DNA of 64,000 nucleotides, taken from the NCBI RefSeq assembly GCF_003261175.1, contig NZ_QLNP01000077.1, forward strand, positions 1-64,000, given 5' to 3'. Below the pieces are notes generated by a model. That model ran no database searches. It had not been told where the DNA came from and saw only the letters and a list, made by a program, of their open reading frames with translations. Origin of the DNA: Arthrobacter globiformis. GTDB taxonomy: Bacteria > Actinomycetota > Actinomycetes > Actinomycetales > Micrococcaceae. This document shows positions 1,390 through 21,462 of this stretch, piece by piece (within the stretch, counting starts at the first letter, position 1; every line of letters starts with the position of its first letter). The position numbers were made by a program, and so were the translations under genes.

Positions 1390-1500
1390 AAGTGAGAGAG
1401 CGTCGGGTGAGGGGTTGCGGGAAGTGAGAGAGCGTCGGGTGAGGGGTTGCGGGAAGTGAGAGAGCGTCGGGTGAGGGGTTGCGGGAAGTGAGAGAGCGTT
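1390..1500. repeat. 32-nt tandem repeat array, locus 1 (3 full units plus part of a fourth)
   Basis: Units begin at 1390, 1422, 1454 and 1486, an exact 32-nt period. Each contains gcgggaagtgagagagcgt followed by cgggtgaggggtt, and the last copy breaks off after the core. The array lies between the sugar-transporter terminator and the permease gene. The same core and the same 32-nt period recur at 21163-21438 with a different tail. No coding potential is credible, because 32 is not a multiple of three and the peptide differs in each frame. Confidence 0.9.
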
Positions 1501-16680: not shown

Positions 16681-16724
16681 GAAGAACAGCCTACCCGCGC
16701 GTCGGCCCCGCTTTTGATAGTGTG

Positions 16725-16806
16725 GTGGCGTCGCAACTGGCGTTTGGGTGGCTAACCACCAGGGAGCGGCATTCACGAAGACCACGGATCGTACGCCTGG
16801 GCCGAG
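16725..16806 (+). ncRNA. ZTP riboswitch (pfl motif) upstream of glyA-folD
   Basis: The sequence has the hallmarks of the pfl/ZTP aptamer in order: actggcg, gggtggctaaccacc, agggagcg, and the 3' block gcctgggcc at about 16794. The AACCACC...GGGAGC and CGCCTGGGC blocks are the most conserved parts of this RNA class. It senses ZTP/ZMP, which accumulate when 10-formyl-THF is short, and normally turns on one-carbon genes. Genes downstream are glyA and folD, exactly such targets. A GATAGT -10 candidate lies at 16715-16720. I could not identify the expression platform in the 177 nt between aptamer and start codon. Confidence 0.85.
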
Positions 16807-16983
16807 GGTCATGTTTTGCCGGTAGCGCTGCGCTTCTCGAAGAGCGGCCACCCGATTGCGCTGCGGCGCCCTGAATAGACCTGCGCCCGGTACGTTTCCG
16901 GATGGTGGTCACTGACGGGCGGAGCAACGTTCCAGCCGGTAGCCTGACCTTTAGTAGTGCCCATCCCTAGCCAGGAGTTCTTC

Positions 16984-19286: not shown

Positions 19287-20480
19287 ATGCAGCGCCGTTT
19301 CCGGGGACCGCCCACAGCAGCCATCGTGGTTGCCGTGGCCGTCTTCGAGGTGGTGGGCACCGTCTTCGCATCCGCCCGGCAGCCGGACCACCGGCCGCTG
19401 GATGCACTCGCGTTCGTCCTGCTGCTGGCGGGACCGGCCTCCCTGTCGCTGCGGCGCCGTGCCCCGCTGGTGATGCTTCCGGCCGCGGCGGCGTCCGTCG
19501 CGGCTTATCTGGCACTCGGCTACGCGTGGGGGCCGGTGTTCCTGTCCCTGGCGCTGGCGATCATGTTTTCCGCCGCTGCCGGGAAGCGTTGGCAGACCTG
19601 GACCGTGGCCGGGTCATGCGCAGCCGTCCTGGTAGCCGCGGCGGCCGGCGGCGACGAGTTCGCCCTGATCAGGGCGTTTGCCGGCACCTCGTGGCTGGCC
19701 ATTCTTGTACTGCTGGGGGAGGGTGTGCGGCTGCGCACCGACCGGGTGGCCGAACGACGCCGCCAGCACGAGGCCCGGGAGCAGGCCGCCCGCGACGAGT
19801 ACCGGCTGACGCTCGCCCGGGACATCCACGACGTCGTTGCGCATTCCCTGTCGCTCATCAACGTCCGTGCCTCCGTGGCGCTGCACCTGGGGGAGAAGGA
19901 CCCCGCTCAGTTCCGCCCCGCGCTGGAAGCCATCAAGACCGCGAGCAAGGATTCGCTGGCCGAGGTCCGCCAGCTCCTGGGCGTGCTCCGCGAGGACGCC
20001 CCGCTGACTCCCGCGCCGCCGCCGCGGCTGGACCGTATTCCAGGGCTCGCCGACGACGCCCGCCGCGCGGGGCTGGAAGTCAGCCTGACCCAGCCGGAGG
20101 CCGCTGCTGTGCGGCAGCTTCCGAACCCCGTCCAGGAAGCGGCATACCGGATCGTCCAGGAGGCGCTGACCAACGTGGTGCGGCATTCCGGCGCCCGGAA
20201 GGCCGCCGTCGTCCTTGCCCTGGAGGGCACGACGCCGGGGGGAAACCCGGGAGGGCAGCTCACCGTGACCGTTGACGACGACGGCGCGGGGGCCACCGGA
20301 GTGCCGGAAGGCAACGGGGTGACGGGGATGCGGGAGAGGGCGGCCGCCGTGGGCGGTTCGCTGCAGGTGGCGCCGCTAAACCTTGCGCCGCTGCATCCGG
20401 GCTGGCGGGTCCGCGCGGTGCTACCGGTCACCCGGCCGCTGGCCGGCCCCTTGCCGGGACCCGAACGGGAGACGCGGTGA
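19287..20480 (+). CDS. Two-component sensor histidine kinase, NarL/HisKA_3 type
   Basis: Membrane histidine kinase (397 aa). The N-terminal half has about four to five helices (AIVVAVAVFEVVGTVFA, ALAFVLLLAGPASLSL, MLPAAAASVAAYLALGY, SWLAILVLLGEGV) without a large external domain. The dimerisation/phosphoacceptor domain has the H-box LARDIHDVVAHSLSLI. The ATPase domain shows EALTNVVRHSGARKA (N-box), VTVDDDGAG (G1) and GNGVTGMRERAAAVGGSL (G2). It overlaps the response-regulator start by 4 nt. A TAGGCT box ends 7 nt upstream of ATG 19287, suggesting a leaderless mRNA. Such pairs often control a nearby ABC exporter, and one lies at 22030-24732. Confidence 0.93.
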   Translation: MQRRFRGPPTAAIVVAVAVFEVVGTVFASARQPDHRPLDALAFVLLLAGPASLSLRRRAPLVMLPAAAASVAAYLALGYAWGPVFLSLALAIMFSAAAGKRWQTWTVAGSCAAVLVAAAAGGDEFALIRAFAGTSWLAILVLLGEGVRLRTDRVAERRRQHEAREQAARDEYRLTLARDIHDVVAHSLSLINVRASVALHLGEKDPAQFRPALEAIKTASKDSLAEVRQLLGVLREDAPLTPAPPPRLDRIPGLADDARRAGLEVSLTQPEAAAVRQLPNPVQEAAYRIVQEALTNVVRHSGARKAAVVLALEGTTPGGNPGGQLTVTVDDDGAGATGVPEGNGVTGMRERAAAVGGSLQVAPLNLAPLHPGWRVRAVLPVTRPLAGPLPGPERETR

Positions 20481-21142
20481 TCCGCATCCTGCTGGCCGAT
20501 GACCAGACCCTCATCCGCGCGGGCTTCCGCGCCCTCCTGAACGCCGAACCGGACATGGACGTGGTGGCCGAGTGCGGCACCGGCCGCGACGCCGTCCGCC
20601 TGGCCGCCCGGGAGCGTCCCGACGTCGTGCTCATGGACATCCGCATGCCCGAGATGGACGGGCTGGAGGCCACCCGGAAGATCATGGCGGACCTGGGCCT
20701 TGCCGGCACTCGCATCATCATCCTCACCACGTTCGAACTGGACGAATACATCGCGGAGGCGGTGCGGGCCGGCGCGGCAGGGTTCCTGGTGAAGGACACC
20801 GAACCCGAGGAACTGCTCCGAGCCGTGCGAGTGGTCCACGACGGAGACGCCCTGCTCTCGCCGTCGGTCACCCGGCGCATCATGGCCCAGCTGGCGCTGC
20901 ACTCCCGGGTGACGGCGGCTCCGGCGTCGCTGGCGAACATCACCGAGCGCGAGCGTGAGGTCCTCCGGCTCGTGGGGGAAGGCCTGAACAATGCGGAGAT
21001 CGCAGAGCGGCTGGTGATCACGCCGCTCACCGCCAAGACGCACGTGTCGCGCATCATGACCAAGCTGCTGATCCGGGACCGGGCGCAGCTGGTGGTACTG
21101 GCGTACGAATCGGGGCTCGTCCGGCCCGGCTGGGCCGGCTGA
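20477..21142 (+). CDS. Two-component response regulator, NarL/LuxR type
   Basis: Response regulator (221 aa). Receiver domain: acidic pair in ILLADDQTLIRAG, phosphoacceptor Asp in VVLMDIRMPEMDG, Thr in IILTTF and Lys in FLVKDTEPEEL. LuxR-type helix-turn-helix: ITEREREVLRLVGEGLNNAE then IAERLVITPLTAKTHVSRIM. GTG 20477 overlaps the kinase stop. Partner of the upstream kinase. Its last codons and stop lie in a 23-nt sequence that is duplicated 307 nt downstream, on the far side of a repeat array. Confidence 0.95.
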   Translation: MIRILLADDQTLIRAGFRALLNAEPDMDVVAECGTGRDAVRLAARERPDVVLMDIRMPEMDGLEATRKIMADLGLAGTRIIILTTFELDEYIAEAVRAGAAGFLVKDTEPEELLRAVRVVHDGDALLSPSVTRRIMAQLALHSRVTAAPASLANITEREREVLRLVGEGLNNAEIAERLVITPLTAKTHVSRIMTKLLIRDRAQLVVLAYESGLVRPGWAG

Positions 21143-21155
21143 GGCAGCAGGCACC
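21133..21155. repeat. Left copy of a 23-nt direct repeat flanking the array (inside the response-regulator end)
   Basis: GGCCGGCTGAGGCAGCAGG then CACC, identical to 21440-21462. It covers the last coding bases and the TGA of the response-regulator gene, so this copy is likely the original. Confidence 0.9.
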
Positions 21156-21162
21156 TTTCGCC

Positions 21163-21290
21163 GACGCTCTCCCACCTCCTGCACCAAAACAACCGACCCT
21201 CTCTCACTCCCTGCGGGTCTCCTGGCGACGCTCTATCACTATCTGTAGCCTTCCTGACGGCGCTCTCTCACTCGGCCAAAGGTGTGCGGC
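21163..21290 (-). repeat. 32-nt modular repeats, inverted half: four units with different tails
   Basis: Units start at 21163, 21195, 21227 and 21259, an exact 32-nt period. Each begins with a version of the core GACSCTCTCTCACYTCCYGC and ends in a different tail of about 12 nt (accaaaacaacc, gggtctcctggc, agccttcctgac, aaggtgtgcggc). The third and fourth cores are degenerate. The orientation is opposite to the units at 21291-21438. Confidence 0.85.
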
Positions 21291-21438
21291 CAGGAGGTGA
21301 GAGAGGGTCCTTTTGGAAGCCGCAGGAGGTGAGAGAGGGTCCTTTTGGAAGCCGCAGGAGGTGAGAGAGGGTCCTTTTGGAAGCCGCAGGAGGTGAGAGA
21401 GGGTCCTTTTGGAAGCCGCAGGAGGTGAGAGAGGGTCT
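21291..21438 (+). repeat. 32-nt modular repeats, direct half: four identical units plus a partial fifth
   Basis: Copies of aggaggtgagagagggtc followed by cttttggaagccgc begin at 21292, 21324, 21356, 21388 and 21420; the fifth diverges after the core. Core and period match the array at 1390-1500, but the tail differs. All tails are the same within this half, unlike the inverted half beside it. The rest of the gap up to 21588 shows no gene. Confidence 0.9.
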
Positions 21439-21439
21439 T

Positions 21440-21462
21440 GGCCGGCTGAGGCAGCAGGCACC
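21440..21462. repeat. Right copy of the 23-nt direct repeat flanking the array
   Basis: Exact copy of 21133-21155, now outside any gene. With the left copy it brackets the whole modular-repeat block, as if the block had been inserted or expanded by recombination at the 3' end of the response-regulator gene. Confidence 0.9.

Follow-up and report, generated by a model that had tools for sequence, protein, structure and literature searches.

A dispersed 32-nt repeat family of Arthrobacter is paired with a gene for a predicted AbiEi-DUF559 nuclease-like protein

To our knowledge, the REPIN/RAYT system is the main example of bacterial short repeats that have a dedicated enzyme. REP elements and REPINs (PMC3116915) are short elements dispersed at gene ends, arranged in inverted pairs that can form hairpins and occurring in lineage-specific variants, together with a dedicated gene, for a RAYT transposase of the Y1 (HUH) type, that is flanked by the repeats. 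The CGTC-tagged REPs (Di Nocera 2013, PMC3733652) are described as having 8- to 9-bp stems, 4- to 5-nt loops and no dedicated transposase, and as dispersed, often dimeric elements that lie mostly downstream of genes; the words "Arthrobacter" and "Actinobacteria" are absent from its main text.

The repeat family described here was met in a 64,000-nt stretch of Arthrobacter globiformis DNA (contig NZ_QLNP01000077.1, positions 1 to 64,000; referred to as the window). It resembles REPIN/RAYT in its dispersal at gene ends, its hairpin-capable inverted pairs, its dedicated gene lying between its own repeats and its lineage-specific variants. Unlike REPIN/RAYT, its partner is a predicted AbiEi-DUF559 nuclease-like protein, and its units form head-to-tail arms with a 32-bp pitch. 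A single REP unit is typically a palindrome with a GTAG-type tag; the core GTGAGAGAGCGTC, judged by eye only, does not look palindromic. Since the defining Y1 transposase (Y1_Tnp, PF01797) is missing from 60 of 61 genomes (G032 alone matched, with two over the cut-off, and the window's genome had none), the family is REPIN/RAYT-like but not a member, and RAYT/IS200 membership was rejected. It shares with the CGTC-tagged REPs a dispersed, often dimeric, gene-downstream occurrence, and many of its cores end in CGTC, a comparison made by description only.

The block at positions 21163 to 21438 of the window contains four inverted and five forward units with a pitch of 32 nt within each arm, and the switch from the left to the right arm measures 38 nt (Table 1). 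The sequence-only reading of this DNA had reported a 32-nt clock in a head-to-head block of 20-nt cores and 12-nt tails; the clock was confirmed, with the core coordinates exact on the pitch in each arm, and the head-to-head layout and the division into core and tail were correct. The last unit, which it had called partial, does lack its tail, but its core is full. TRF assigned the right arm a period of 32, 4.6 copies and 100% matches, and its four identical units support the suggestion that this half expanded recently. A 15-nt core pattern allowing up to 3 mismatches matched the window 15 times, compared with a mean of 6.1 and a maximum of 14 in shuffled sequence (0/100 shuffles reached 15). 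The only known RNA families found in the window were one tRNA and one ZMP/ZTP riboswitch.

Table 1. Positions of the repeat arrays, the insertion and another feature of the window
Feature	Position	Strand	Remarks
Second array of the same repeat family	1390..1500	+	Four units in the window; two at the same site in the close relative G002
ZMP/ZTP riboswitch	16723-16809		Precedes a gene at 16957 that by eye is glyA-like
Target duplication, left copy (23-bp direct repeat GGCCGGCTGAGGCAGCAGGCACC)	21133..21155		Covers the stop codon of the upstream gene
Inserted element, 284 bp	21156..21439		Between the direct-repeat copies; absent from the orthologous G002 site
Left arm	21163..21271	-	Four cores, at 21163, 21195, 21227 and 21259; tails differ
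Right arm	21291..21437	+	Five cores, at 21297, 21329, 21361, 21393 and 21425; four identical tails
Right copy of the 23-bp direct repeat	21440..21462		Perfect match to the left copy

Like a CRISPR array, the block joins a constant and a variable part at a fixed period. Unlike one, it has 12-nt tails that are identical in half of the block, inverted arms and dispersed copies; all of these points but the last were grounds for rejecting a CRISPR-like cassette array, and the earlier remark that the tails are too short for CRISPR spacers holds. The likeness to a cassette array with meaningful tails did not survive; the tails follow a loose pattern (by eye, G/C-rich ends around an A/T center), and the core itself varies between genomes. 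No named element with this layout was known to the sequence-only reading, and none was found in the open-access literature (PMC) either, where searches on DUF559 with repeats or a transposon, AbiEi with DUF559, and Arthrobacter repeats gave nothing relevant among the matches listed. PMC12306157 has a table that includes Arthrobacter livingstonensis among scanned genomes, and PMC6413936 prints GACGCTCTCTCAC within a predicted Thalassospira small RNA, with no visible link to these repeats.

The block is one array of a genome-wide, dispersed 32-nt repeat family. When the whole genome (4.88 Mb in 88 contigs) was searched for the 13-nt core GTGAGAGAGNGTC with at most 1 mismatch, 49 matches were obtained, versus 4 for the reversed control, and about 16 arrays of the family were recognized in addition to single or stray matches. 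In 57 loci that were retrieved for the cores they contain, there were 95 pairs of neighboring same-strand cores no more than 200 nt apart; 85 of these were spaced at 32 nt, 5 at 31 or 33 nt and 5 at 64 or 96 nt. The orientation changed from minus to plus 28 times in the same loci and never from plus to minus. The sequence-only reading had proposed looking for the core elsewhere on a 32-nt grid, and had held that a core or a pitch confined to this place would make the block a local tandem duplication. Because the core is found at many loci and the pitch is kept there, the block is more than that. Unit number, which was also to be compared between relatives, differs by 64 bp, or two units, at the second array, which the sequence-only reading had not listed. 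The earlier observation was therefore right but understated, since its unit belongs to a dispersed family that has a protein partner on another contig.

The family extends through the genus. A generic tandem pattern (two generic cores 32 nt apart, which detects GTGA-type cores only) matched 55 of 61 genus genomes, with 0 to 295 pairs each and none in the reversed control. Of 198 genomes sampled from the order, it matched 6 of the 7 that belong to the genus and, with a single pair, 1 from outside it; the reversed pattern matched 1.

The array in the window is an insertion with a duplicated target, a feature absent from the sequence-only reading. The 23-bp repeat on either side of it is copied from the place where the response-regulator-like gene upstream (20477-21142) ends, and in the close relative G002, which is 94 to 95% identical here, the array is absent and the target is present as a single copy with 21 of 23 bases identical. 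This is one clean event only: when ~60 to 90 nt were scanned beside 72 arrays (64, plus 8 in 400 kb of G012), the window's alone stood out, and a 9-base match beside the L063 array was near the control level. A wider look at another array of the window's genome (C74:258022; L044, C74:257869-258153) showed that it lies between direct repeats of 62 nt that are 85% identical and that likewise copy the end of the gene upstream; G002 holds only a unit-like remnant at that site. With repeats of 23 bp in one case and 62 nt in the other, the duplication has no set length, a variation for which repair copying accounts at least as well as a staggered cut would.

A pair of arrays encloses a gene of ~970 bp in the window's genome and in G058, and the protein that it encodes has a DUF559 domain. 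We compared the array-flanked clade of such genes with its paralogues, both obtained by searching 61 genomes (clade members were at least 63% identical, and many paralogues were among the matches listed). A 32-nt array lies on at least one side of the clade gene at all 40 genus loci examined, which include two truncated genes and one with an inner stop, and on both sides at 34; none of the 29 paralogue loci fetched has one. In a tree of 67 proteins, the 38 array-flanked ones form a single clade that requires 1 change (support, 83/87). The cores at the 40 loci run away from the gene in 214 cases and towards it in 12. Among the best 80 of 138 named relatives (Arthrobacter, Pseudarthrobacter, Paenarthrobacter and one contig labeled Sporosarcina, overlapping in species with the 40-locus set), arrays were present at 79 and on both sides at 71, and the best lag was 32 in 79. 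At 6 of 6 loci found at an E value of 1e-95 in another genus of the same bacterial family, the pitch of 32 nt is retained beside the same gene, with different cores. The cassette occupies a few fixed places: 27 of the 40 loci are near fhs/ino1 (one by its DUF2306 neighbor alone), 7 near bS22 and 6 near pucR-purU, these being the names that we presume for the neighboring genes.

Array number follows the gene as well. Genomes with the clade (41, broken copies included) had a median of 38 tandem pairs, versus 3 in the 20 genomes without it (one-sided P = 5e-6, genomes being counted regardless of relatedness). There are exceptions in both directions, as G043 and G028 are array rich without the clade (148 and 45 pairs, respectively) and G010 and G033 are array poor with it (2 pairs each). 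We regard the pairing of repeat and DUF559 gene as secure, with very little doubt. Two clade genes in one genome also occur (L226 with L265; L230 with L262); in one two-gene genome the arm sets differ in core word (GAGA and GCGC), and in another the second copy is without arrays. The locus on the contig labeled Sporosarcina beigongshangi (L292), with its arrays, is of the typical Arthrobacter type, and our guess is that this contig is contamination. Paenarthrobacter aurescens TC1, a soil strain kept in the laboratory, also carries the locus (L272).

The partner protein is predicted to consist of an AbiEi-like DNA-binding domain fused to a nuclease-like DUF559 domain of the Vsr/EDxHD type. All 35 proteins in an alignment matched DUF559 (PF04480) at an E value of 0.1 or better, the G058 protein scoring 22.1 against a gathering score of 20.6. 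Residues 21 to 146 of the G058 protein matched the AbiEi model PDLC02249 (E = 6.3e-8), and 7 of the 35 proteins matched Pfam AbiEi_4 at an E value of 0.1 or better. The protein thus resembles the AbiE type IV toxin-antitoxin system in this region; the difference from AbiE is that the AbiEi part is here joined to a nuclease domain, with repeat arrays beside the gene. PF18741 also matched 35 of 35 proteins at an E value of 0.1 or better, with the G058 protein scoring 17.6 against a cut-off of 38.2. This model links it to the Vsr-type REase domain of MTES_1575, which PMC3710099 places in a large HEPN-linked protein, unlike the protein described here. The nuclease-type residues E212, D244, D257, H260 and H261 are invariant in all 35 proteins, and an acidic residue of a more distant DUF559 group is Q in the array-flanked clade. 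The structure model was weak (mean pLDDT, 57), with no Foldseek match reaching an E value of 0.001; the nearest solved folds, sub-threshold matches to this weak model, include the homing endonuclease I-Bth0305I, and profile matches to nuclease structures were not significant (E = 0.47 and 0.76). Unlike EDxHD homing endonucleases such as I-Bth0305I, and unlike Vsr, the DUF559 gene is linked to many dispersed repeats and not to one homing site.

The copy of this gene in the window's genome (L043:3822-4801, contig C67) is split over two frames, and the arrays of this genome look recently active despite the split. A conserved TGTGGATAACTTCTGCAG-like block lies upstream of DUF559 genes, for instance before position 1501 of L088, and contains what we take to be a DnaA-box sequence. 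Its core TGTGGATAA is found ahead of 39 of 40 clade genes but also of 23 of 29 paralogues, so it is not specific to the clade; the block may serve DUF559 genes at large as a promoter or operator.

The core has a variable part (GAGA, GGGA, GCGR and others) that differs between genomes, and we asked how this word relates to the DUF559 gene. With the three patterns GAGA, GGGA and GCGR used for all genome counts, the commonest word genome-wide was the word of the arms around the DUF559 gene in 22 of 22 classed genomes; the classes cover 22 of 30 loci, the other 8 having other words or too few clear cores. Examples of the counts are 93/2/1 in G058, 1/68/0 in G036 and 0/0/262 in G045. The unclassed G060 and G033 would fit GAGA, and G034 has a GCGA left arm but was classed as GAGA.

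The window's genome and G002 offer a closer comparison. Twelve of the fifteen array sites of the window's genome were located in G002 through a piece of the left flank: nine have an array in both genomes, two lack it in G002 (C31:142671 and C74:258022) and one could not be judged. At the G002 counterpart of C31:142671 (L160), another repeat-like sequence with TGGTTGAGCTTGTCGAAACC replaces the array. The nine shared sites hold 18 GAGAG/TAGAG units in the window's genome and none in G002, and 34 GGAAG/GGACG units in G002 versus 8 in the window's genome. The DUF559 alleles of the two genomes are only 65% (162 residues) and 68% (120 residues) identical, and the gene adjoining DUF559 is 96% identical over 1,415 nt. 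On this comparison, the DUF559 allele has switched, and so have the words of the nine sites in common. The array at 1390-1500 keeps GAGAG in both genomes, so the rewriting is incomplete.

Among the variable columns of an alignment of 87 proteins, position 107 (L088 numbering) had the best normalized mutual information with the word, 0.68. Serine accompanied GAGA in 36 of 41 proteins, glutamate GGGA in 14 of 17 and GGA in 4 of 4, glycine GCG in 18 of 20, glutamine TGG in 3 of 3 and alanine CCG in 2 of 2, so that the residue goes with the two leading variable bases of the core (S with GA, E with GG, G with GC, Q with TG and A with CC). The window's genome has S and G002 has E at this position, as their words predict, G002 being among the 87 rows. 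Outside the genus, L299 (TG) has the predicted Q, and L300 does not fit. Once corrected for the tree, GAGA gave 6 independent pairs, of which 3.7 on average were concordant and none opposite (P ≥ 0.125), and there were only 4 pairs for GGGA with E and 3 for GCG with G. The code linking residue 107 and word is therefore suggestive, being underpowered and not significant after tree correction.

G058 has a common element of 103 bp, a dyad made up of two inverted pairs. In an alignment of 12 copies (1 of 13 was dropped because its left arm is missing), 43 pairs were present, with 93.8% of cells paired and 11 pairs changed on both sides. The covariation score was 0.159, versus 0.091 in shuffles (0/500) and at most 0.054 when the alignment was slid; the number of pair types was not above shuffles, 122 of 500 of which reached it. 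Dispersed extragenic inverted pairs with the potential to form hairpins are thus found in this genome. The dyad fits a hairpin or cruciform in either DNA or RNA, and both selection and copying from one arm to the other could account for it.

When genes were called by a simple method, not one of 64 arrays lay mostly within a gene. Where both neighbors were called, 30 of 61 arrays occupied convergent gaps, versus 40 of 176 in the background, and 4 of 61 occupied divergent gaps, versus 38 of 176. These placements would also be expected if the arrays were host sites at gene ends, serving termination, mRNA 3' ends or chromosome structure, and if the DUF559 protein were a domesticated DNA-binding factor rather than a mover. 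The Q that the clade has in place of an acidic residue would suit such a factor, as would the persistence of array locations between the window's genome and G002 while the words differ. In many cases the C-rich strand of the arrays is the sense strand for the gene end beside it, an observation that prompted the idea of a Rho/rut-like terminator, which belongs to the same explanation. A range of 0 to 295 pairs within one genus, however, is more what one would expect of a mobile family than of an essential site, and the insertion with its duplicated target and the invariance of the five nuclease-type residues also argue against host sites. We consider this explanation unlikely.

We instead think it moderately probable that the arrays are a non-autonomous dispersed repeat whose copying and rewriting are driven by the DUF559 protein, after the manner of REPIN/RAYT and with an unrelated enzyme. 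The N-terminal domain would read the core, and the nuclease domain would nick or cut it, perhaps with the dyad folded as a cruciform or as a single-stranded hairpin. Repair would then copy units between arrays, so that arrays would grow and shrink by 32-bp steps, old words would be overwritten by the word of the resident nuclease, and an array would occasionally be inserted at a new 3' gene end. A more detailed version, which we put forward tentatively and at somewhat less than an even chance, is a mobile repeat driven by the AbiEi-DUF559 nuclease in which a change of allele converts the dispersed arrays in place, residue 107 tracks the word, and the 32-bp pitch reflects a fixed protein footprint that leaves the letters free; 32 bp is about three helical turns. 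The counts given above show the pairing; the mechanism is inferred. Several observations weigh against it: a single clean insertion and a duplication of varying length, genomes rich in arrays without the clade or poor in them with it, the split gene of the window's genome, the Q of the clade, the weak structure model and profile matches, the one array with an unchanged word in both relatives, and the number of pair types in the dyad.

The arrays could alternatively spread by other means, with the DUF559 gene as a homing-type passenger inside its own target array. The confinement of the cassette to a few fixed places would be in keeping with homing, as would the presence of I-Bth0305I among the nearest solved folds. 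The Y1 transposase, the only other mobilizer family searched for, is nevertheless lacking in nearly all of the genomes, the number of arrays follows the presence of the gene (with exceptions), and in the classed genomes the arms carry the word that is commonest genome-wide; we therefore judge a passenger improbable. That the gene is a defense or toxin-antitoxin device, with the arrays as decoy sites that restrain a toxic nuclease, is suggested by the likeness of the N-terminal domain to AbiEi, but PADLOC matched only the AbiEi part of the DUF559 protein and such a device does not predict gene-end dispersal or word switching, which makes it very unlikely indeed. That the block is just a tandem duplication confined to this place, in keeping with the four identical units of the right arm, was rejected as having practically no chance of being correct, given that the same 32-nt pitch recurs genome-wide and genus-wide.

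Taken together, our results suggest that these arrays and their partner, read as a repeat copied and rewritten through the DUF559 protein, represent an unrecognized kind of mobile repeat system that is tied to one uncharacterized nuclease-like gene. If this is true, an unrelated nuclease with its own repeat family, set off by a clean paralogue control, would be an independent invention of the REPIN/RAYT plan, and part of the DUF559 family would gain a function. The paired change of allele and word at fixed sites would open the concerted evolution of dispersed repeats to experiment, and the many genome-specific words, together with a single residue that tracks them, would provide a natural data set on how such a protein reads DNA.
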